DNA of 64,000 nucleotides. Origin: Pandoraea oxalativorans. GTDB taxonomy: Bacteria; Pseudomonadota; Gammaproteobacteria; Burkholderiales; Burkholderiaceae. The translations under genes were made by a program, and so were the position numbers. This document shows positions 2,095 to 64,000 of the stretch, in pieces (position 1 is the stretch's first letter; each line of letters opens with the position of its first letter). Under the pieces are notes generated by a model that saw nothing but the letters and a program-made list of their open reading frames with translations, ran no database searches and was not told where the DNA came from. The stretch lies in contig NZ_CP011253.3 of the NCBI RefSeq assembly GCF_000972785.3, positions 4,216,001-4,280,000 on the forward strand. The letters are read 5' to 3'.

Positions 2095-3462
2095 TCACAG
2101 CGGCATTCGGTCGATGACCTCGCGCACTTCGGCGAGCACCGGCGCGACCTGCGCCTCGCTCATCGAACTCAACCCCAGCCGAAGCGCATGAGGCGCGTGC
2201 CGCGTCGTGGCGTAGGCCTGCGCCTTCGATACGGCGATGCCGCGCGCAGCCAGCGCAGACGCCGCCCGGTCCATGCGCAACCCCTCGGGCAACGGCAGCC
2301 AGAGAAACAAAGACGACGGATGCGCGACCACCTCCATACCGCGCAACGCCTCACGGGCAACCGTCTGACGCCACTTCGCCTGCGCGCGCTGGCGCTCCTC
2401 CTGACGCTCGACGTCACCGCTCGCGAGCCAGCGCGTCGCGATGGCCGTGACCACACTCGACAGACTCCAGTACGAGGCCCGCACCACACGTTTGACCTGC
2501 GCTGCGTACGCCTCAGGCGCTACGACATACCCGAAGCGCAACCCCGTCGCCACGCTCTTCGAGAGACTCGATACGTAAAACGTACGCTCGGGTGCGGGCG
2601 TGACGATGGGCGGCCCCGCGTTATCGACGAGATACGCATAAGTCGCATCTTCGATGATCAGGCAGTCGTGACGTCGTGCAATCTCTACCAAACGCCGACG
2701 CTGTGCCCTACTCAACACCCAACCCAGCGGGTTGTGCAACGTCGGCATCGTATAGATGGCCCTCACGGCATGGCGACGGCATATCGCTTCGAGCGCATCG
2801 AGATCGGGCCCCACATGTCCACTTCCCGCACCCTGCCCGCGATGCTCCGCCGCGACGGGCTTCAACGCCAGCCCTGCCAGCGACGCCGTCATCTTGAACC
2901 CCGGATACGTCAATGCGTCGACGGCCACGGCATCGCCCGGGCGCAACGTCGTTCGTACCAGGACGTCGAGGCCTTGTTGCGCGCCACCGACGAGAAAGAC
3001 GCGCGCCCCCGGTACGTCGATCCCGCGCGCACGACGCAGATACGCCGCCACCGTCTCGCGTTCGTGTTGCCGACCGCCGGGCGGCTGCTGATGCATCAAC
3101 GCACTGAGATCGCCCGCCGTCGCCAACTCACGCAACGTCGCGCGCAGCAACTCGCTCTGATCCGGCCATGACGGATGGTTGAACGACAGATCCACCGCGC
3201 TGGAACTCAGCCGCGCCTCGTCATCGACGTCCCACTCGCGCTGCATCGGACGATCCCGAACGAATGTCCCCCGTCCGACCTCGCCGACGACCAGCCCCAG
3301 ATCGCGCAGCTTTGCGTAGACCTTGGTCGCGGACGCAATCGCCATGCCGTACTGCGCGGCGAGTTTTCGATGCGTCGGCAGTGCCGAGCCTGGCGGCAGC
3401 GCACCGCTGCGAATATCGGCCGACAGGCGTTCGACGAGCGCAGAGACAGGGGAATCGGTCAT
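2095..3462 (-). CDS. MocR-type regulator: GntR winged helix fused to PLP-dependent aminotransferase fold
   Basis: 455 residues from ATG 3462; an upstream in-frame start would extend into the divergent promoter. The N-terminal 70 residues are a GntR wHTH (LVERLSADIRSGALPPGS, then LPTHRKLAAQYG and VGRGTFV). The remainder is a fold-type I aminotransferase domain with YTMPTLHNPLGW, a DATYAYL segment and the Schiff-base lysine region YVSSLSKSVATGLRFGY. MocR proteins bind PLP as a sensor and usually regulate a divergent neighbour. Here that neighbour is the thioesterase at 3542, with an 80-bp shared intergenic region. The actual ligand is unknown. Confidence 0.9.
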   Translation of the reverse strand: MTDSPVSALVERLSADIRSGALPPGSALPTHRKLAAQYGMAIASATKVYAKLRDLGLVVGEVGRGTFVRDRPMQREWDVDDEARLSSSAVDLSFNHPSWPDQSELLRATLRELATAGDLSALMHQQPPGGRQHERETVAAYLRRARGIDVPGARVFLVGGAQQGLDVLVRTTLRPGDAVAVDALTYPGFKMTASLAGLALKPVAAEHRGQGAGSGHVGPDLDALEAICRRHAVRAIYTMPTLHNPLGWVLSRAQRRRLVEIARRHDCLIIEDATYAYLVDNAGPPIVTPAPERTFYVSSLSKSVATGLRFGYVVAPEAYAAQVKRVVRASYWSLSSVVTAIATRWLASGDVERQEERQRAQAKWRQTVAREALRGMEVVAHPSSLFLWLPLPEGLRMDRAASALAARGIAVSKAQAYATTRHAPHALRLGLSSMSEAQVAPVLAEVREVIDRMPL

Positions 3463-3473
3463 GACTGTACGTA

Positions 3474-3523
3474 GGACAATTTCTTGATTGTCCGATTCTA
3501 GGCGGCGACACTTCAGATCGCAA
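3474..3523. promoter_or_regulatory. dyad and leftward promoter between mocR and the thioesterase
   Basis: A perfect 7-bp inverted repeat GGACAAT-N6-ATTGTCC lies at 3474-3493. On the minus strand TAGAAT (3495-3500) and, 17 bp upstream, TTGCGA (3518-3523) resemble a sigma-70 promoter for the MocR gene, and the dyad would sit at its start site. This is a candidate autoregulatory operator. Confidence 0.45.
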
Positions 3524-3541
3524 ACGTCAAAAGAGACCGCC

Positions 3542-4042
3542 ATGCCCCAGACGACCGACATCCCCCAGGACGCGCAATACCCCGTGCTGACCTATTTGCA
3601 GCGACTGCTCGACGGCACGCTGCGCGGCAACGAATCCATCCATATGCGCTACCCTACGGCGATCTCGCAATTCCTCGGCTTCCGGATCGTGGAAGTCGGC
3701 GAGGCGCTCGCCGTCATCGAACTGGATACCCACCCTGAGATCCACGGCAACCAGCAAGGCACCGTGCATGGCGGCCTGCTGTGCGAACTGGCGGACGCAG
3801 CCATCGGCACCGCACACTCGACACTCATGGGTGAAGGCGAGACGTTCACGAGCATCGATCTGAAGGCGACGTTTCTGCGCCCGGTGTGGGACGCACGTCT
3901 GCTGGCCCGCGCGTGGGCAACGCATCGCGGACGCACCGTCTCGCACTATCAATGCGACATCCAACGTGAGGACGGCAAGGTCGTCGCGCGCGTGGACAGC
4001 GCCGTCATGACCTTGCGCGGGGAGCACGCCAGAGGTCGATGA
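3542..4042 (+). CDS. PaaI-family hotdog thioesterase
   Basis: 166 residues. The hotdog signature is clear: TVHGGLLCELADAAIGTA holds the HGG motif on the central helix, with the catalytic Asp in the ELADAA segment. It continues through a strand TSIDLKATFLRPV and the C-terminal strands of the PaaI_thioesterase family. Members hydrolyse acyl- or aryl-CoA esters as housekeeping or catabolic accessory enzymes. ATG 3542 is chosen because an AGAGA purine run precedes it and the longer reading frame runs through the regulatory region. It is divergent from the MocR regulator, which probably controls it. Confidence 0.88.
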   Translation: MPQTTDIPQDAQYPVLTYLQRLLDGTLRGNESIHMRYPTAISQFLGFRIVEVGEALAVIELDTHPEIHGNQQGTVHGGLLCELADAAIGTAHSTLMGEGETFTSIDLKATFLRPVWDARLLARAWATHRGRTVSHYQCDIQREDGKVVARVDSAVMTLRGEHARGR

Positions 4043-55850: not shown

Positions 55851-56273
55851 TCAGGCGGGCAACCACTCCTGCAACGTCACCTCGATGGTAATGAACGAGA
55901 GATTGCCGCCGCGCACGAAGCGTCCCGCGAACATGCGCCCCTCGGTGTCCGCCACCATGCCGTGCAGCATCGGCATGGCGCTTGCCGAATCCGCCCCCTT
56001 CGGGCGTGTATCGACCTCACCGAACACGTTGAGAATCTCCACCCCGGGGCCGTTCACCACCTGTTCGCGCCAGCCGTCGCCGGCGCGAAACGCCAGCCTC
56101 GCATCGATCAGACTCCCCACTGCGCCACGCACGATCGCGCGCGCAATCGCATGCTCGGCGCACAGCGCCTCGATGCTTTCCGTCAGATCCTGATTCGGCT
56201 TCAGGCGCGCCACCACCAACCTGCCCAATGTGCCATTTTCGATGGCGACGGGAACATCCAGCGCGACGCTCAT
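55851..56273 (-). CDS. DUF296/PPC-domain protein, copy B (altered metal site)
   Basis: 140 residues from ATG 56273. It has the PPC (DUF296) trimeric domain layout: VARLKPNQDLTESIEALCAEHAIARAIVRGAVGSLIDARLAF, then MPMLHGMVADTEGRMFAGRFV. In many prokaryotic PPC proteins a His-x-His and a downstream GGH bind a metal; here the second His is Gly and GGH is AGR, so the site is incomplete. The start overlaps the stop of copy A by 4 bp. It is the last gene of the thiolase operon. Confidence 0.82.
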   Translation of the reverse strand: MSVALDVPVAIENGTLGRLVVARLKPNQDLTESIEALCAEHAIARAIVRGAVGSLIDARLAFRAGDGWREQVVNGPGVEILNVFGEVDTRPKGADSASAMPMLHGMVADTEGRMFAGRFVRGGNLSFITIEVTLQEWLPA

Positions 56274-56806
56274 GACAGTTCTCCCGCCACCGGGCGCAAC
56301 AGGTGGAACCGTGTCTCCTCGTCGTCGCCCGTCACGTATCCACCGTGCGCAAAGAGACACAGACGAATCACCACCGGTTCGTCTCCGGCCCACGTGTGAT
56401 CGAGAATCAGATGCCCGCCATGCAGCTCGCCCGACGGATCGGAAAAGCCCGCATGGCAGTGCATCAGCGTCGCGCCGTCGGCCGTTCGGCCCACGGTAAT
56501 CGCGCCGCCGATCAGATCGACTTCGCGCGTCTCGTCGACCGGCTCACCATAGCCGAAGGGACGATCCGCATCCGTCGTGTTCTCGATCATGTGGTACCGC
56601 AGACCTCGCGCGGTCCCCGCACAGAAACGCCCGACGCCGCCGCCGTACGCATAGCGGGATAACGCCGCGCGTAAAGCCTCGCCGAGATTGGCACCGGTCC
56701 GGATCGTCACGCGCAGTTCGTGCTGCCCGCTCAACACGCAGTCTTCCACACGGGGTAACGTGGGGGCGCCTGCATGTCGATAGACCCGTGAAAGCGCAGG
56801 TTTCAT
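56270..56806 (-). CDS. DUF296/PPC-domain protein, copy A (intact metal site)
   Basis: 178 residues from ATG 56806, which overlaps the stop of the ligase gene in an ATGA. The PPC domain is present with RTGANLGEALRAALSRYAYGGGVGRFCAG and the complete metal-type motif LMHCHAGFSDPSGELHGGHL (His-Cys-His and Gly-Gly-His). A conserved FGYGEPVDETREVDLIGG segment lies between. The biochemical activity of such operon-borne DUF296 proteins is not established. Coupling to acyl-CoA ligase and thiolase suggests a catabolic lyase or carrier role. Confidence 0.82.
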   Translation of the reverse strand: MKPALSRVYRHAGAPTLPRVEDCVLSGQHELRVTIRTGANLGEALRAALSRYAYGGGVGRFCAGTARGLRYHMIENTTDADRPFGYGEPVDETREVDLIGGAITVGRTADGATLMHCHAGFSDPSGELHGGHLILDHTWAGDEPVVIRLCLFAHGGYVTGDDEETRFHLLRPVAGELS

Positions 56807-58380
56807 AGTCGATAGTCTCCTTGCTCTTCGAGCATCGTCTTGATTTGCTTCTTCACGATCTTGCCGTAGCCCGATTTGGGCATGGCACTCCAGAACACGA
56901 AGCGACGCGGCCACTTGTAGCGGGCAATACGCGCTTCGAGATGTCCGAGCAGTTCATCGGCCTGTGCGGCCATGCCTTCCCGGGCGACCACCACCGCGAG
57001 CCCGCTCTCGCCCCACTTGGGGTCGGGCACGCCAAGCACCGCGCACTCCGACACGCACGGATGCGTGAGCAGCGCTTCCTCGATCTCACGCGGGTAGACG
57101 TTCGAGCCACCCGAGATGTACATGTCCGACGCCCGGCCCGTGATGTACAGGAATCCCTGCGCATCCACATGGCCTAGGTCGCCGGTGTGGAACCAGTCGT
57201 CCTTGAACGCCTTGGCGTTGGCGTCCGGATTGTTGTGATACCCCATGAAGACGGCCGGACCGCGCACGCAGATTTCGCCCGACGCGAACGCCGGTTGACG
57301 CTGCCCCTGCTCGTCCAGAATCGCCACCTCCATACCCGTGCGCGGCACCCCGCACGTGCCGACGCGCGCATCGGGCGCATCGTCGTCATCGCTGTGCAGC
57401 CACGGCGGCAACACCGTGATGTTGCCCGTCACCTCGCCCAGTCCGTAGTACTGCACCAGTACGCGGCCCAGCTTCTGCAACGCGTACTTCTGATCGGCGC
57501 GATACATCGGCGCGCCCGCGTAGATTACGAAGCGCAGCGAGCTATGGTCGTAGCGGTCCACCGTCGGATCTTCCACCAGCATCTTGACGATGGTCGGCAC
57601 CGTGAACATGTTGTCGACCCGGTGACGCTCGATGGCCTGCCAGACCTGTTCCGCGTCCATCTTCTCGCCCGGCAGCAACACGCTGGCCGCACCGCGTGCC
57701 GTGTTGACGATGGCGTGAATGCCCGCGCCATGCGACAAGGGGGCAACGACCATCGAGCGGCTGCGATACGTAATGCCGGGCATCAGATCGGCCAGATGGT
57801 TGGTGACGACGAACGCCATCTGCCCGTGCGAGAGCACGCCCGCCTTCGGATGGCCGGTCGTGCCCGAGGTGTAGAAGAACCACAGCGGATCTTCGTATTC
57901 GACTTCCTCCTCGTAACCCTGAGCCCCCATGTGTTCGGCAACGAGTGTCTCGTAATGCAACTCGCCCGCGCGCGGTGCGCCGAGGGCGATGACGTGGCGC
58001 AATGCGGGCGACGCCGCACGCACCGCATCGACGTGGCCTTCGAAACCCGCGTCATAAATCATCACGCAAGCGCCGCTCGACTGCCCCAGATACGCCGCCT
58101 CGGGGGCGGTGATGCGGAAGTTCGTCGGCACCCACACGGCCCCGAGGCGAAACGCGATCCATGCGCTCTCGAAAATCGGCAGGTTGTTACGCGAATGCAC
58201 GAGCAACTTGTCGCCCTTCTTCACGCCGAGCTTGCGCAGCGCGTCGACCACAGCGTTCACGCGGGCATCGATCTCGCCCCACGTCGTGACGTTCTCGCCG
58301 ACGATCAGCCCGGGTTCGTCCGGGTGCCGCCGCGCGACGTCGGCCAACATCCGGCCGAGGTTCATGACCTTCTTGAGCAT
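56803..58380 (-). CDS. AMP-forming acyl-CoA synthetase
   Basis: 525 residues. ANL superfamily motifs are complete: P-loop FFYTSGTTGHPKAGVLSH, YYGLGEVTGNI, WFHTGDLGHVDAQGFLYITGR and the C-terminal catalytic lysine region PKSGYGKIVKKQ. It activates an organic acid to its CoA thioester with ATP. The exact acid is unknown; length and motifs fit medium-chain or aromatic-acid ligases. It lies 28 bp after the thiolase gene. Confidence 0.93.
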   Translation of the reverse strand: MLKKVMNLGRMLADVARRHPDEPGLIVGENVTTWGEIDARVNAVVDALRKLGVKKGDKLLVHSRNNLPIFESAWIAFRLGAVWVPTNFRITAPEAAYLGQSSGACVMIYDAGFEGHVDAVRAASPALRHVIALGAPRAGELHYETLVAEHMGAQGYEEEVEYEDPLWFFYTSGTTGHPKAGVLSHGQMAFVVTNHLADLMPGITYRSRSMVVAPLSHGAGIHAIVNTARGAASVLLPGEKMDAEQVWQAIERHRVDNMFTVPTIVKMLVEDPTVDRYDHSSLRFVIYAGAPMYRADQKYALQKLGRVLVQYYGLGEVTGNITVLPPWLHSDDDDAPDARVGTCGVPRTGMEVAILDEQGQRQPAFASGEICVRGPAVFMGYHNNPDANAKAFKDDWFHTGDLGHVDAQGFLYITGRASDMYISGGSNVYPREIEEALLTHPCVSECAVLGVPDPKWGESGLAVVVAREGMAAQADELLGHLEARIARYKWPRRFVFWSAMPKSGYGKIVKKQIKTMLEEQGDYRL

Positions 58381-58408: not shown

Positions 58409-59575
58409 TTAGCGCGCTTCGAGAATGCTCACGTAGTTCGCCACGGCCGCGCCGCCCATGTTGAAGACGCCCGCCAGCTTCGCATCGGGAATCTGCATGT
58501 CGCCCGCCGTCCCCGTCAGTTGCATCGCCGCCATCACGTGCATCGACACACCGGTCGCGCCCACCGGATGCCCCTTCGCCTTCAGACCGCCCGACGGATT
58601 CACCGGCAGCAGGCCGTTCTTTTCCGTCAACCCTTCGGCCAGGACACTCGCACCCTGTCCCGGCTTGGCCAGCCCCATGGCTTCGTATTCGATGAGCTCG
58701 GCGATGGTGAAGCAGTCATGCGTCTCGACCAGCGACAGATCCTTCAGCGACACCCCGGCCACACCCAGCGCCTGACGCCACGCATGCTGACCGCCTTCGA
58801 ACGCCAGCGGGTCGCGTCGCGAGAGGGGCAGATAGTCGTTGACCTGCACGGCCGCGCGGAAACCGACCGCCTTGGGCATGCTGCGTGCGACATCTGCCTT
58901 GGAGATGACCAGCGCAGCCGCACCGTCCGACACCATCGAGCAGTCGGTGCGCTTGAGCGGACCGGCCACGAACGGGTTCTTCTCGGAGACGTTGCGGCAG
59001 AAGTCGTAACCGAAGTCGCGACGCATATGCGCATACGGATTGACCGAGCCGTTGCGGTGGTTCTTCGCCGCAATGCGCGCGAGCGCGTCGGATTGATCGC
59101 CGTAGCGCTCGAAGTAGGCCTGCGCGATGGTGCCGAACACGCCCGCGAAGCCACCGGGAATGCCAGCCTCCTCACGCGCATACGAACACTTGAGCAGCAC
59201 TTCGCCGACCTGTGGCGTGGCGAGTTCGGTCATCTTCTCGAAGCCGATCACGAGCACATGGGTGGCTTTGCCCGCTTCGATGGATTGCAGCCCGCCATGT
59301 ACGGCGGCGGAACCGGTCGCGCACGCATTTTCGTAGCGCGTGGCGGGTTTGAAACGCAGGCCGGGGATGCGGTTGAAGATGAGCGACGACGGGAAGTCCT
59401 GATACAGGAAGCCGCCGTTGAAGGTACCGACGTGGATGGAATCGATCTGTTCGGGCGAGAGGCCCGCATCGTCGAGGGCGGCCTGGGCGACGTCGGCCAG
59501 CAGGACCTCGGCGTCGACGTTATCGAGTTTGCCGAACTGGGAGTGGGCCCAGCCGGTAAGGCATGCAGCAACCAT
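58409..59575 (-). CDS. thiolase-family acetyl-CoA acyltransferase (SCPx-like)
   Basis: 388 residues from ATG 59575 with GGAGA. The active-site Cys is in RYENACATGSAAVHGG and the catalytic His in GGLKAKGHPVGATGVS. The usual C-terminal Cys of degradative thiolases (C-x-G) is replaced by NMGG in VFNMGGAAVANYVS, as in SCP-x-type thiolases. Such enzymes cleave or condense branched or steroid-like acyl-CoAs. The companion DUF35 protein that often accompanies them is absent; two DUF296 genes occupy the operon instead. It is the first gene after the sigma-54 promoter at 59616-59632. Confidence 0.9.
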   Translation of the reverse strand: MVAACLTGWAHSQFGKLDNVDAEVLLADVAQAALDDAGLSPEQIDSIHVGTFNGGFLYQDFPSSLIFNRIPGLRFKPATRYENACATGSAAVHGGLQSIEAGKATHVLVIGFEKMTELATPQVGEVLLKCSYAREEAGIPGGFAGVFGTIAQAYFERYGDQSDALARIAAKNHRNGSVNPYAHMRRDFGYDFCRNVSEKNPFVAGPLKRTDCSMVSDGAAALVISKADVARSMPKAVGFRAAVQVNDYLPLSRRDPLAFEGGQHAWRQALGVAGVSLKDLSLVETHDCFTIAELIEYEAMGLAKPGQGASVLAEGLTEKNGLLPVNPSGGLKAKGHPVGATGVSMHVMAAMQLTGTAGDMQIPDAKLAGVFNMGGAAVANYVSILEAR

Positions 59576-59615
59576 GAAGTGTCTCCGGAAAATTGGGGTC
59601 ATCCAGACTCCGGTG

Positions 59616-59632
59616 AGCAATTTCGATGCCAG
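59616..59632 (-). promoter_or_regulatory. sigma-54 promoter for the thiolase operon
   Basis: CTGGCATCGAAATTGCT on the minus strand has the TGGCA-N6-TTGC pattern with GG and GC at -24/-12 and correct spacing. Predicted start near 59605, about 30 nt before the thiolase ATG and its GGAGA site. Confidence 0.78.
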
Positions 59633-59854
59633 ATCCTTGCAAGGCGCGAGTACACGGGCAGCGCAACGCCTGATCTGTCACGTCGACGGCCCGGTCAGTC
59701 GTCGTTGCGAGGTCGTTCCCTTGCTGCGCTTGTGGCGCCTATGCAATTGACGCAAGCGTAAAGCGGGAGCCGCTGGCCCATCAAGTGAATTCTGAAGCCC
59801 ACCGGATGAAGAAAATTTGCTGTGCCGCAGCAATGCCCGGCATGCCGAAATGCG

Positions 59855-59933
59855 TGCGACACCTGTCGCACCGGGCGTGGCGGCATTTGCGACAGGTGTC
59901 GCAACGCGTCGGCGAAATGCGACAGGTGTCACA
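59855..59933. promoter_or_regulatory. triple palindrome, probable shared sigma-54 enhancer
   Basis: Three 16-bp copies of TGCGACA-NN-TGTCGCA lie at 59855-59870 (perfect), 59888-59903 (perfect) and 59918-59933 (one mismatch). Centres are 33 and 30 bp apart, about three helical turns. They lie roughly 225-300 bp from the leftward -24 box and 190-270 bp from the rightward one. This is the geometry of upstream activating sequences for an AAA+ sigma-54 activator. Confidence 0.78.
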
Positions 59934-60120
59934 CCCGCATGTTTGCTGTGTCCGGGCGAGCCTCGCACGCGCAGCAAGACGCGCCGTGCCCCGCCAGCGT
60001 CGCGCACGCCTGTTGCGCCTGATGAAAGGCCCAAGCGGGGCGCACGGTCCACGCGCAGCACCGCCTTCGGGAATTCACTGATGCTTAACAACGTAAGGGT
60101 TTTCCCGTTCGGATGCCGAA

Positions 60121-60137
60121 CTGGCATTCGATTTGCG
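60121..60137 (+). promoter_or_regulatory. sigma-54 promoter for the TRAP operon
   Basis: CTGGCATTCGATTTGCG has TGGCA-N6-TTGC with GG (60123-60124) and GC (60135-60136) at the right spacing. The predicted start near 60148 leaves a leader of about 100 nt before the TRAP binding-protein gene. Confidence 0.78.
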
Positions 60138-60248
60138 TAAGATTAGCCAGCCACTTTTTCGAGTTGGCCGGGACGCTGCATCGCAGCACGCTTGCACGCC
60201 CCGAGCTTCAGACGCAGTCACCAAACCAATAATCAGGAGACATGCAGT

Positions 60249-61268
60249 ATGAGCACTATGGATCGCCGCCATTTCATCAAGGTTGTGGCCGCCACATCGG
60301 CCGCCGCCGCTACGGGGTTGTATCAGACGCAGGCGCACGCTGCCGAATTCACGCTGAAGTTCGCCAATAACCTGCCGGTCAGCCATCCGATGAACATCCG
60401 CGCCAAGGAGATGGCGCAGAAGATCGCCGAGCAATCGAAAGGCCGCATCGACTTCCAGATCTATCCGAACAATCAGTTGGGCTCCGACAGCGACATGCTG
60501 AGCCAGATTCGTTCGGGTGCGATCGACTACTTCACGCTCTCGCCGCTGATTCTCGGCACGCTCGTACCCGCCGCACAGATTTCGGGCGTGGGCTTCGCGT
60601 TCAAGGACTACAGCCAGGTGTGGGCGGCCATGGACGGCGATCTCGGTGCGCACGTGCGCGGCCAGATCGCGAAGACGACCGTGTTCGCGTTCGACAAGAT
60701 CTGGGAGAACGGTTATCGCCAGATCACCACGAGCAGCCGTCCGATCAACTCGCCGACCGACCTCAAGGGCCTGAAGATCCGCGTGCCGACGAGCCCGCTG
60801 TGGACGTCGATGTTCAGGGCGTTCGATTCGTCGCCCACGTCGATCAACTTCGCCGAAGTGTATTCGGCCCTGCAGACGCACATCGTCGAAGCGCAGGAAA
60901 ACCCGCTGGCGCTGCTGACCACGGCCAAGCTCTACGAAGTGCAGAAATACGTGTCGATGACGAACCACATGTGGGACGGTTTCTGGTTCCTCGCCAACAA
61001 GCAGAAGTGGGACAAGCTGCCGAAGGACCTTCAGGAGATTGTCACCGCCAACGTGAACGCCGCCGCCATGGCGCAGCGCGACGACGTGCGCAAGCTCAAC
61101 GATGGCGTGATGGCGGAGCTCAAGCAGAAGGGTCTGGTGTTCAACGCCCCGAACAACGAGCAGTTCCGCGACAAACTTCGCGCCGCCGGCTTTTACGCCG
61201 AATGGCACAAGAAGTTCGGCGACGAAGCATGGGCCATGTTGGAAAAGTACACTGGGAAGCTCGCGTAA
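60249..61268 (+). CDS. dctP: TRAP transporter substrate-binding protein (DctP family)
   Basis: 339 residues from ATG 60249 with an AGGAG site. A twin-arginine-like signal (DRRHFIKVVAATSAAAATG ... AHA) precedes the mature domain. DctP motifs include FANNLPVSHPMNIRAKEMAQ, the conserved arginine region KGLKIRVPTSPLWTSMFRAF that usually contacts the substrate carboxylate, and FAEVYSALQTHIVEAQENPL. It binds an organic acid in the periplasm. The next gene starts directly after its stop codon. Confidence 0.94.
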   Translation: MSTMDRRHFIKVVAATSAAAATGLYQTQAHAAEFTLKFANNLPVSHPMNIRAKEMAQKIAEQSKGRIDFQIYPNNQLGSDSDMLSQIRSGAIDYFTLSPLILGTLVPAAQISGVGFAFKDYSQVWAAMDGDLGAHVRGQIAKTTVFAFDKIWENGYRQITTSSRPINSPTDLKGLKIRVPTSPLWTSMFRAFDSSPTSINFAEVYSALQTHIVEAQENPLALLTTAKLYEVQKYVSMTNHMWDGFWFLANKQKWDKLPKDLQEIVTANVNAAAMAQRDDVRKLNDGVMAELKQKGLVFNAPNNEQFRDKLRAAGFYAEWHKKFGDEAWAMLEKYTGKLA

Positions 61269-63146
61269 ATGGAAACGTTGACGATGACGGCCGAGCCGAC
61301 GCACGCGCTCGCCCGCCTCTTCTGCCACGTCAACCGCGCGGTGATGAAAGTCACCGAGGCGGTTGCCGTGCTGCTGGTGGTGGCGGAAACTCTCATCCTG
61401 CTCGCGGGCGTGGTCTCGCGTTACGGGTTCGACAATCCGCTCACGTGGTCGGATGAGCTCGCGCAGATGCTGTTCATCTGGCTCTCGATGCTCGGCGCGG
61501 TGCTTGCCCTCGACCGGGGCGAGCACATGCGCTTGTCCGCCATCGTCAACAAGCTTCCCGCTGCCTGGCGCGACTGGTTCCAGACCATGGCCGCGCTGAC
61601 GGTGTGCGTGTTCGTCGCGCTCATCATCATGCCCGCGTACACGCATGCCATCGAACAGATGGACATCACCACGCCGGCACTGGAAATCCCCGACGGGCTG
61701 CGCGCAGCCGCCCTGCCGGTAGGCGCGGCGCTCATGCTCATTGCCGCAATCTCACGCATGGCACGCTGCTCCAGTGCGCGTCAGTTCGGCCTCGGCGTGC
61801 TGTTCGTCGCAGCGCTCGGTGCGGCGCTCTGGCTCGGCCGCCCTGCGCTGATCGCGATGGGCAACTACAACCTGCTGATCTTCTTCGTGCTGATTGTCGG
61901 CGCATGCGTGGCCGGCGGCATTCCGATTGCGTTTGCCTTCGGGACCGCCACGCTCGCGTATCTGGCGCTGGTGACGGACGCACCGCTGCAAATCGTCGTG
62001 AGCCGCATGGACGAAGGCATGTCCGGCCTCGTGCTGCTGTCAGTGCCGCTGTTCGTGCTGCTGGGTGCGCTCATCGAGATGAGCGGTCTGGCGCGCAGTC
62101 TGATCGAGTTCATGGCATCGCTGCTCGGCCACGTGCGTGGCGGCCTGCAATACGTGCTGCTCGGCGCGATGTTCCTCGTCTCGGGCATTTCCGGCTCGAA
62201 GGCGGCCGACATGGCAGCCGTCGCCCCGGCGCTCTTCCCCGAGATGCAACGCCGGGGCTCGAAGCAGGAAGACCTGGTGGCGCTGCTGTCGGCCACCGGC
62301 GCCATGACCGAGACGATTCCGCCGAGCCTCGTGCTCATCACGATCGGTGCGGTGTGCGGTGTGTCGATCACGGCGCTCTTCGTCGGCGGCCTGCTGCCTG
62401 CCGTGATCGCCACACTCGCCATCGTCGTGGTGTGCTTTGCCCGCTCGCGCAAGGAAGCGCCGAGCGCAGCACGTCGCGCACCGTGGGGCGTCATCGGCAA
62501 GACGTTTATCGTGGCGCTGCCCGCCCTCGCGCTGCCGATCCTCATCCGCACGGCCGTGATCGAGGGCGCGGCTACAGCGACCGAAGTCTCGACCATCGGT
62601 ATCGCCTACACGATCGTGATCGGCTTGATCGTCCACGCCTTCAGGAAGCACCTGAACTTCAAGCGTCTTTATCCGCTGCTCACGGAAACGGCCGCACTCT
62701 CCGGCGCGATTCTGCTGATCATCGGCATGGCGACGGCCATGGCCTGGGCGCTCACGCAATCGGGTTTCTCCGCGAAGCTCGTCGGCCTGATGCACGGCGT
62801 GCCGGGTGGACAAGTCGGCTTCCTGCTCATCTCGATGGTCGTGTTCATCGTGCTCGGCAGCGTGCTCGAAGGCATTCCCGCCATCGTGCTGTTCGGCCCG
62901 CTGCTGTTCCCGGTCGCCCGCTCGCTCGGCATTCACGACGTGCACTACGCGATGGTCGTCATTCTCTCGATGGGGATGGGCCTGTTCGCTCCGCCGCTCG
63001 GCGTGGGCTTCTATGCCGCGTGCGCCATTGGCAAGACATCGCCCGACAAAGTGTTCAACCGGATGTGGACCTATATGGGCGCGCTGCTCGTCGCCCTGCT
63101 CGTCGTGGTCTTCATCCCCTGGATCTCGATCGGTTTCCTGAAGTAA
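61269..63146 (+). CDS. dctQM: TRAP transporter fused DctQ-DctM permease
   Basis: 625 residues. The first about 170 residues form a four-helix DctQ domain (VVSRYGFDNPLTWSDELAQML). From about residue 205 comes the 12-helix DctM domain with GIPIAFAFGTATLAYL, SVPLFVLLGALIEMSGLAR, GGLQYVLLGAMFLVSGISGS and PPLGVGFYAACAIGK. It imports the DctP-bound acid with sodium or protons. Fusion of Q and M is a known variant. Confidence 0.95.
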   Translation: METLTMTAEPTHALARLFCHVNRAVMKVTEAVAVLLVVAETLILLAGVVSRYGFDNPLTWSDELAQMLFIWLSMLGAVLALDRGEHMRLSAIVNKLPAAWRDWFQTMAALTVCVFVALIIMPAYTHAIEQMDITTPALEIPDGLRAAALPVGAALMLIAAISRMARCSSARQFGLGVLFVAALGAALWLGRPALIAMGNYNLLIFFVLIVGACVAGGIPIAFAFGTATLAYLALVTDAPLQIVVSRMDEGMSGLVLLSVPLFVLLGALIEMSGLARSLIEFMASLLGHVRGGLQYVLLGAMFLVSGISGSKAADMAAVAPALFPEMQRRGSKQEDLVALLSATGAMTETIPPSLVLITIGAVCGVSITALFVGGLLPAVIATLAIVVVCFARSRKEAPSAARRAPWGVIGKTFIVALPALALPILIRTAVIEGAATATEVSTIGIAYTIVIGLIVHAFRKHLNFKRLYPLLTETAALSGAILLIIGMATAMAWALTQSGFSAKLVGLMHGVPGGQVGFLLISMVVFIVLGSVLEGIPAIVLFGPLLFPVARSLGIHDVHYAMVVILSMGMGLFAPPLGVGFYAACAIGKTSPDKVFNRMWTYMGALLVALLVVVFIPWISIGFLK

Positions 63147-63248: not shown

Positions 63249-64000
63249 ATGACGGAGAAGGTAGCAGTAGTCACGGGCGGTGGAATGGGTATCGGCGCCG
63301 CCATTTGCGAACGTTTGGTCAAGGATGGCATGACGGTCGTCGTGGCCGATCTGAACGAAGGTGCGGCGACTGAGACGGCCGCAGCGCTGAGTGCGTCGGG
63401 CGGGCGCGCGTGGGCGCTGGGCATGAACGTGGGCGAGGAGGCGTCGATTGCCGACGGCTTTGCACAGATTGCCAGGCGGCACGGGCGCTGCGACGTGCTG
63501 GTGAACAATGCGGGCGTCGCCAAGACGTTCCCGTTTCTCGACTACCCGCTCGATCACTGGCATCAGGTCATGGCCGTCAATCTGACGGGCACCCTGCTAT
63601 GCGGGCAGCACGCCGCGCGTCTCATGCGCGAGCAGCGCTGGGGACGGATCGTCAATCTGGCGTCGGTCGCGGGCATTCTTGCCAGCGCCGGACGCACGGC
63701 ATACGGCACGTCGAAGGCGGCCGTGATCGGGCTGACGCGCCAGATGGCCATCGAACTTGCCCCCTTCGGCATCACCGCCAATGGGATCGCCCCCGGCCCC
63801 ATCGACACGCCGCTGACCAAAGTGCTGCACTCGGACGTTTCGCGCCGTCACTACACGGAGACGACGCCGCTCGGGCGCTACGGACAGCCGCATGAAATCG
63901 CCGGTGCGGTGAGCTTTCTCGCGTCGGACGACGCGTCGTATGTCACCGGCCATATCCTGCCGGTCGACGGCGGCTTCGTCGCCGCCGGGATTCTGGAAAT
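63249..64000 (+). CDS. short-chain dehydrogenase/reductase (SDR), truncated by the window end
   Basis: At least 250 residues; ATG 63249 with TAGGAG, and the frame is open at the last base. Classical SDR motifs: VAVVTGGGMGIGAAICERL for NAD(P) binding, VLVNNAGVAKTF, catalytic Ser and Tyr-x3-Lys in NLASVAGILASAGRTAYGTSKAAV, and LPVDGGFVAAG near the C-terminus. An Asp after strand 2 (VVVADLNEG) suggests NAD preference. It probably oxidises a hydroxy intermediate of the imported compound. It is very likely almost complete. Confidence 0.92.
   Translation, partial: MTEKVAVVTGGGMGIGAAICERLVKDGMTVVVADLNEGAATETAAALSASGGRAWALGMNVGEEASIADGFAQIARRHGRCDVLVNNAGVAKTFPFLDYPLDHWHQVMAVNLTGTLLCGQHAARLMREQRWGRIVNLASVAGILASAGRTAYGTSKAAVIGLTRQMAIELAPFGITANGIAPGPIDTPLTKVLHSDVSRRHYTETTPLGRYGQPHEIAGAVSFLASDDASYVTGHILPVDGGFVAAGILE

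Follow-up and report, generated by a model that had tools for sequence, protein, structure and literature searches.

Divergent operons that share a sigma-54 enhancer are already known as a kind. In Escherichia coli, hyc/hyp (activator FhlA) and zraP/zraSR (activator ZraR) have divergent sigma-54 promoters with common activator sites. In Pseudomonas putida, the gene for the sigma-54 activator SfnR, a protein without a sensory domain, is reportedly under the control of the LysR-type protein CysB, which is said to act globally in the sulfur response and to be unlinked. Here we analyze a divergent pair of operons (a divergon) in a 64,000-nucleotide stretch of DNA from Pandoraea oxalativorans (the window; contig NZ_CP011253.3, positions 4,216,001 to 4,280,000), together with two genes just past its end, one encoding a sigma-54 enhancer-binding protein (EBP), EBP1, and the other a LysR-type regulator.

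FhlA and ZraR carry sensory or receiver domains, whereas none was recognized in EBP1, and the LysR gene at the Pandoraea locus, unlike that of CysB, is a divergent neighbor of the activator gene. In Desulfovibrio vulgaris, orp1/orp2 comprises two divergent sigma-54 operons that the EBP DVU2106 switches on together via palindromic sites (PMC3897727). The Pandoraea locus resembles it in having divergent sigma-54 operons, palindromic sites and an activator gene in the same cluster. However, orp1/orp2 is described with two palindromic sites, sites for integration host factor (IHF) between these and the promoters, and genes linked to cell division, while the Pandoraea divergon has three sites grouped at its center, is paired with a LysR gene, shows no clear IHF site and carries catabolic genes. 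We consider it very likely that the locus is a two-tier catabolic regulon, in which a ligand would act through LysR on EBP1, and EBP1 through a shared enhancer on both sigma-54 promoters. Read directly from the sequence are the promoters and sites, which genes are present, the conservation, the pairing of activator and LysR, and the LysR-type box.

Results

Two divergent promoters flank three palindromic sites

The original prediction, made from the letters of the window, had proposed two oppositely directed promoters of the form TGGCA-N6-TTGC and, between them, three copies of TGCGACA-N2-TGTCGCA spaced 30-33 bp apart. Both -24/-12 boxes are indeed present as exact matches: TGGCATCGAAATTGC at 59617..59631 on the minus strand, ahead of the thiolase-ligase-PCC operon, and TGGCATTCGATTTGC at 60122..60136 on the plus strand, ahead of the TRAP-SDR operon. 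The window holds three exact matches to this motif, two of which are the divergon boxes, and shuffling the intergenic region by mononucleotide 20,000 times never produced both boxes together. With up to one mismatch allowed, the motif is not commoner than chance (20 in the window vs 17.4 expected), and thus the claim is carried by the exactness, position and conservation of the boxes. The longer form of the sigma-54 promoter, TGGCAYN5TTGCW, occurs 29 times in the genome compared to 6 times for a reversed control; it is fitted by the minus box and not by the plus box, whose last base is G. The genome contains one rpoN gene.

The palindromes were also found, the third with one mismatch. Palindrome 1, TGCGACACCTGTCGCA (59855..59870), a putative EBP1 operator, and palindrome 2, TGCGACAGGTGTCGCA (59888..59903), are exact, and palindrome 3, TGCGACAGGTGTCACA (59918..59933), carries the mismatch. 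Their spacings of 33 and 30 bp correspond to about three helical turns. By coordinates, 223 bp separate palindrome 1 from the minus box and 188 bp separate palindrome 3 from the plus box, distances within the usual range for sigma-54 enhancers. Since palindromes with up to three mismatches are near chance level (10 in the window vs 6.8 expected), weight is placed on the three near-perfect copies only.

The whole 6.5 Mb genome contains three exact palindromes, two at the divergon and the other at a second EBP locus, with a gene that we call EBP2 and a ham/mgo-like cluster; this was the one further site yielded by the genome search that the original prediction had suggested. Across 32 genomes of the genus, there are 73 exact sites in 28 genomes, whereas the reversed control gave 3, spread over 3 genomes. 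The 73 divide into 54 at the divergon, 17 near an EBP2/LysR pair, and 2 elsewhere. The 2 outside both EBP loci (L195:5580 and L196:4718) are about the reversed-control number. A chance origin of the sites was considered and is ruled out by their conservation in 26 loci and the genome-wide counts.

The boxes and palindromes are conserved within Pandoraea

At a search threshold of E 1e-80, EBP1 was detected in 30 of the 32 genus genomes; the exceptions are a genome of 1.2 Mb and one that is 89% complete and has EBP2 only. A divergon with both boxes exact accompanies it in all 30 (29 distinct sequences plus L194, the divergon of G222, which is on a separate contig). Overall, the 67 divergons collected correspond to 53 distinct sequences, many of the named Pandoraea loci repeating genomes already counted. 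Counting palindromes with up to two mismatches, 26 of the 30 Pandoraea divergons (including L194) have three, one has two, and three have one. Among 25 triplets, the spacings are 33/30 (11), 34/30 (11) or 34/31 (3).

In an alignment of 26 Pandoraea divergons, both boxes and palindromes were kept, so the original prediction was not refuted by its related loci. The minus and plus boxes have mean identities of 0.992 and 0.974, and palindromes 1-3 have 0.945, 0.940 and 0.923. Identity falls to 0.39 and 0.37 between the palindromes, and the two gaps between box and palindrome have 0.55 and 0.47; the stretches next to the start codons have 0.95 and 0.76, and the overall mean is 0.63. Two more conserved islands are seen in these loci between the enhancer and each promoter, at ~59751-59769 and ~60087-60108. 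Neither contains an IHF consensus match, and they are possibly the sites of another regulator. In four Pandoraea loci (L092, L093, L094 and L095), the TRAP side carries a pair of exact -24/-12 boxes spaced by 54 bp.

EBP1 and a LysR gene lie just past the window

The original prediction had stated that the activator gene was not in the window, which is literally true, yet this gene starts only 1.2 kb past the end, at the same locus. A Sigma54_activat search of the genome returned 20 matches, 14 of them strong, with one 1.4 kb beyond the window end. It belongs to EBP1 (65184-66440, plus strand; L036:11184-12440), a Fis-type sigma-54 activator of the kind that had been proposed as worth searching for. 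The LysR gene (64058-65002, minus strand) is divergent from it, and an ISL3-family transposase gene (L036:12489-13745) lies directly downstream of EBP1.

The 418 residues of EBP1 comprise an AAA+ domain (PF00158, 215.7 bits; Walker A GETGTGKE), an AAA lid, and a C-terminal Fis-type helix-turn-helix (HTH; PF02954, HTH_8). Pfam matched only these three, and no sensory domain was recognized, with ~65 residues ahead of the AAA+ domain. The GAFTGA loop of such activators contacts sigma-54, and a serine variant would be expected to work. All 84 rows of the EBP family, including those from Pseudomonas (81 loci, some of one genome), have GAFSGA instead; in the outgroup, GAFSGA occurs in 0 of 24 rows and GAFTGA in 21.

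The gap between LysR and EBP1 carries a dyad, ATACC-N5-GGTAT, which is different from the palindromes and fits the T-N11-A form of LysR boxes. Its core, TACC-N5-GGTA, is rare elsewhere in the loci and is found in the LysR-EBP gap of 29/30 Pandoraea EBP1 loci (not L080), 13/13 Herbaspirillum loci, and 6/10 other loci (L111 and L197 being one genome). This arrangement suggests that EBP1 is probably controlled by the divergent LysR.

Divergons in other genera and rearranged loci

The EBP family is rare outside its relatives: when 399 genomes were drawn evenly from the order, P. oxalativorans itself and G472 were the only ones to reach E 1e-100. G472 (L111/L197) has an EBP1/LysR pair at 62% identity, with the LysR-type box present. 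We then turn to 80 named loci, 24 of which (L169-L192) are without any of the genes. Of the remaining 56, a thiolase or DctP match is present in 42 and an AurF-type match in 11, with 2 having both, while 5 show neither; the flanks of these five are mostly short or ended by the contig.

In Herbaspirillum, all ten distinct divergons have both boxes exact and one palindrome, which is exact in each; three further loci stop before the divergon. Three enhancer sites are a Pandoraea feature; Herbaspirillum divergons have one. The Pseudomonas group, which includes one metagenome-assembled genome classed only as Gammaproteobacteria, has both boxes exact in 8/8 divergons. Among six other divergons (L101, L130, L141, L148, L150 and L152), both boxes are exact in two, and a palindrome with up to two mismatches is present in five.

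The unit can also be split. In Pseudomonas L159, L164, L165 and L166, the TRAP and thiolase genes are kilobases apart, each with an exact -24/-12 box that starts 53-86 bp ahead of the first matched codon. When located beside the LysR gene, the PCC pair comes with an exact box of its own in L130 (= L100), L202, L139, L148 and L152; an exact palindrome accompanies it in L130 and L202, but not in the other three.

A second locus pairs EBP2 with a ham/mgo-like cluster

At the second locus, a 4'-phosphopantetheinyl transferase gene that has an exact -24/-12 box is preceded by the remaining exact palindrome of the genome, and 1.4 kb separate this palindrome from the point where the EBP2 gene ends. 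Over residues 63-410, EBP2 and EBP1 share 59% identity, and the EBP2 gene, too, is divergent from a LysR gene. Its neighbors encode aminotransferase-like and cyclase-type proteins, an A-T-reductase nonribosomal peptide synthetase (NRPS), an AurF-type N-oxygenase, and pieces of a DUF3050 protein, and the ham/mgo gene order of DUF3050, AurF, A-T-reductase NRPS and cyclase is found here. The DUF3050 frame (L193:2063-4297; C1:1166063-1168297) is split around a Mutator-family transposase gene (2580-3845); its parts adjoin in L102, L103, L104 and L110.

The ham, mgo and pvf clusters (fragin, valdiazen and the mangotoxin signal) contain these same kinds of genes, namely DUF3050, AurF-type N-oxygenase, A-T-reductase NRPS and a cyclase-type protein (PMC5878181, PMC3298696). 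Judged by its gene kinds, the cluster at the second locus is ham/mgo-like and would be of the diazeniumdiolate type. In the available text of PMC5878181, Pandoraea ham clusters are adjoined by LysR, 'Fis regulator' and aldo/keto reductase genes, and this Fis regulator is not tied there to sigma-54 or to an operator. The P. syringae mgo promoter is assigned to sigma-70 in one of the two reports (PMC5878181 / PMC3298696).

EBP2 and the AurF-type N-oxygenase occur in the same 21 of the 32 genus genomes (a count uncorrected for kinship), and 17 of these 21 have an exact palindrome within 4 kb of EBP2. Two genomes, those of Paraburkholderia phenoliruptrix (L148/L200/L203) and Burkholderia sp. WSM2232 (L150/L201/L204), have a single EBP/LysR pair with a TRAP divergon on one side and a ham-like operon on the other. 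For a tree, 39 sequences were chosen and 32 passed the filter; the seven lost include all but one outgroup row, and the root is unsure. Pandoraea EBP2 groups with the Paraburkholderia EBP (100/99), apart from Pandoraea EBP1, and the EBP of P. phenoliruptrix and Burkholderia sp. WSM2232 falls in this EBP2 group. P. fungorum (L152) has the TRAP cluster and an EBP of the EBP2-grouping type, with no AurF-type match. In G266 (L198/L199), ~14 kb separate two EBP genes, of which one neighbors a ham-like cluster and the other neighbors TRAP genes; this is possibly an intermediate stage of EBP duplication.

To examine the ham-like operon, we scanned 900 bp upstream (621 bp in L104) at 14 distinct Pandoraea loci, or 18 rows with four second copies. 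An exact -24/-12 box was present in 12 of the 14 (not L149 or L154), and a palindrome above the score cut was found only in L155, 537 bp upstream. Since good palindromes are lacking here, direct control of the Pandoraea operon through a palindrome is not supported. In L203 and L204, the operon has a box with a weak site 190 bp upstream. Control of the ham-like operon by EBP2 is at most plausible. A requirement of the TRAP cluster for the ham cluster was considered and rejected, with 21 of 25 non-Pandoraea genomes of the EBP family giving no N-oxygenase match (E 1e-40).

Genes of the divergon and a candidate substrate

The gene content given in the original prediction was borne out. On the minus strand are a thiolase (PRK07516 type; 58409..59575) and an AMP-forming acyl-CoA ligase (PRK07470 type; 56803..58380), both profile matches, followed by two PCC/DUF296 proteins: b (56270..56914), a weak match just under the Pfam cut-off whose start, by eye, is perhaps an ATG near 56806, and a (55851..56393), with a start perhaps at an ATG near 56273, also by eye. 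The plus strand encodes a solute-binding protein, DctP, of a tripartite ATP-independent periplasmic (TRAP) transporter, with a TAT-type leader (60249..61268), and a fused TRAP permease, DctQM (61269..63146), again by profile match. A short-chain dehydrogenase (SDR; 63249..64000) follows and continues 4 bases beyond the window end. The PCC/DUF296 proteins had no sequence match in the PDB, and in the open-licence PMC literature we found no paper that has DUF296 together with a thiolase.

By sequence and fold searches, the closest solved relative of DctP is 4oan from Rhodopseudomonas palustris, although the DctP model is middling (mean pLDDT 71.5). The density in 4oan was reportedly modelled as 2-acetolactate, and this compound is listed among new TRAP ligands in a review. 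The best NCBIfam match of LysR is AlsR, at 255.7 bits, which is below the cut-off of 430. Taken as leads, the DctP relative and the presence of ligase, SDR and thiolase point to a small branched hydroxy- or keto-acid as a possible substrate.

Discussion

In the mechanism that we propose, the LysR-type sensor would respond to a ligand, probably a substrate or product of the pathway, and activate the divergent EBP1 gene. Because EBP1 consists of an AAA+ domain plus a Fis-type HTH without a sensory domain, its amount would set its activity. EBP1 dimers would bind the three in-phase palindromes and assemble a hexamer, which by DNA looping would open sigma-54 polymerase at both -24/-12 promoters. 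Uptake (TRAP with SDR) and breakdown (ligase, thiolase and PCC) would in this way be switched on together. Which protein binds which site, the order of the cascade, the dependence on sigma-54, and the ligand are what we infer from the elements above.

The palindromes could instead bind another regulator, such as a TetR- or LysR-type repressor, with an unlinked EBP driving the sigma-54 promoters. Palindromes of the 7-2-7 type are also typical of small dimeric repressors, the genome has 14 strong EBP matches, and in G472 the divergon genes are missing from the vicinity of the EBP/LysR pair. Nevertheless, 71 of the 73 exact palindromes in the genus are at EBP1 or EBP2 loci, exact copies are also found next to this EBP family outside Pandoraea, and the gap between LysR and EBP1 has its own, different dyad; we regard this explanation as improbable. 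Still less credence, and indeed very little, goes to the idea that only one promoter depends on sigma-54 and the enhancer serves one side. At L148, L150 and L152, the thiolase-side box does have one mismatch while that on the DctP side is exact, but both boxes are exact in all distinct divergons of Pandoraea (29/29), Herbaspirillum (10/10) and the Pseudomonas group (8/8), and both are near-invariant in Pandoraea.

A different question is whether EBP1 and EBP2 are interchangeable, with both acting on the divergon so that either LysR could provide the input. This is compatible with the two-tier regulon and quite possible, if not what we would expect. The operators at the two loci are identical, the HTH regions are close (CRASLYRKLKQLSIPHVRD vs CRTSLYRKLRELHIPHVRD), and one EBP stands between both clusters in the two Paraburkholderia/Burkholderia genomes. 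However, 10 of the 32 genus genomes have EBP1 without EBP2 and an intact divergon, and EBP2 is therefore not needed.

Several observations weigh against a LysR-EBP1 cascade acting through a shared enhancer. The two conserved islands flanking the enhancer are not accounted for by the proposed model, and the IHF consensus within one mismatch, absent from the P. oxalativorans divergon, occurs in some other divergons. In G472, the 20 kb around the EBP1/LysR pair gave no match for thiolase, ligase, DctP or PCC. A palindrome with up to two mismatches is present in only 3/8 divergons of the Pseudomonas group and missing from 5/8, a core like GACACCTGT being left in several, and the divergon of L101 (= L139) lacks a palindrome although both boxes are there. 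Conversely, the thiolase and DctP genes of L130 (Chitinasiproducens) have palindromes but no box within one mismatch. The thiolase and DctP genes of L202 and the DctP gene of L199 have neither element, and the thiolase and PCC genes of L198 have a box with one mismatch. In addition, the LysR box is missing from the gap in 13/13 Pseudomonas-group, 10/10 Pandoraea EBP2 and 4/10 other loci.

In a search of the open-licence PMC literature, we found no description of the EBP family, the operator, or the combination of LysR, EBP and divergon. The novel part is the link of the EBP/operator system to the signal cluster. On a broader view, which we consider possible but less likely than not, a dedicated EBP family, marked by GAFSGA and the lack of a sensory domain and nearly always beside a LysR gene, would use one operator code to tie the uptake and breakdown of a small branched hydroxy- or keto-acid to a diazeniumdiolate signalling cluster. 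One EBP/LysR pair would serve both in some Paraburkholderia, and the Pandoraea paralogues, sharing the operator, could cross-talk.

The divergon cluster, with its two DUF296 proteins, is conserved across Pandoraea, Herbaspirillum, Paraburkholderia and Pseudomonas, and we found no account of it in the open-licence PMC literature searched; the analysis puts forward a candidate activator, operator and sensor for it. It also offers a candidate regulator for the ham-type signal clusters of Pandoraea, and loci that differ in having three sites, two, one or only degenerate copies would constitute a natural experiment on shared enhancers.

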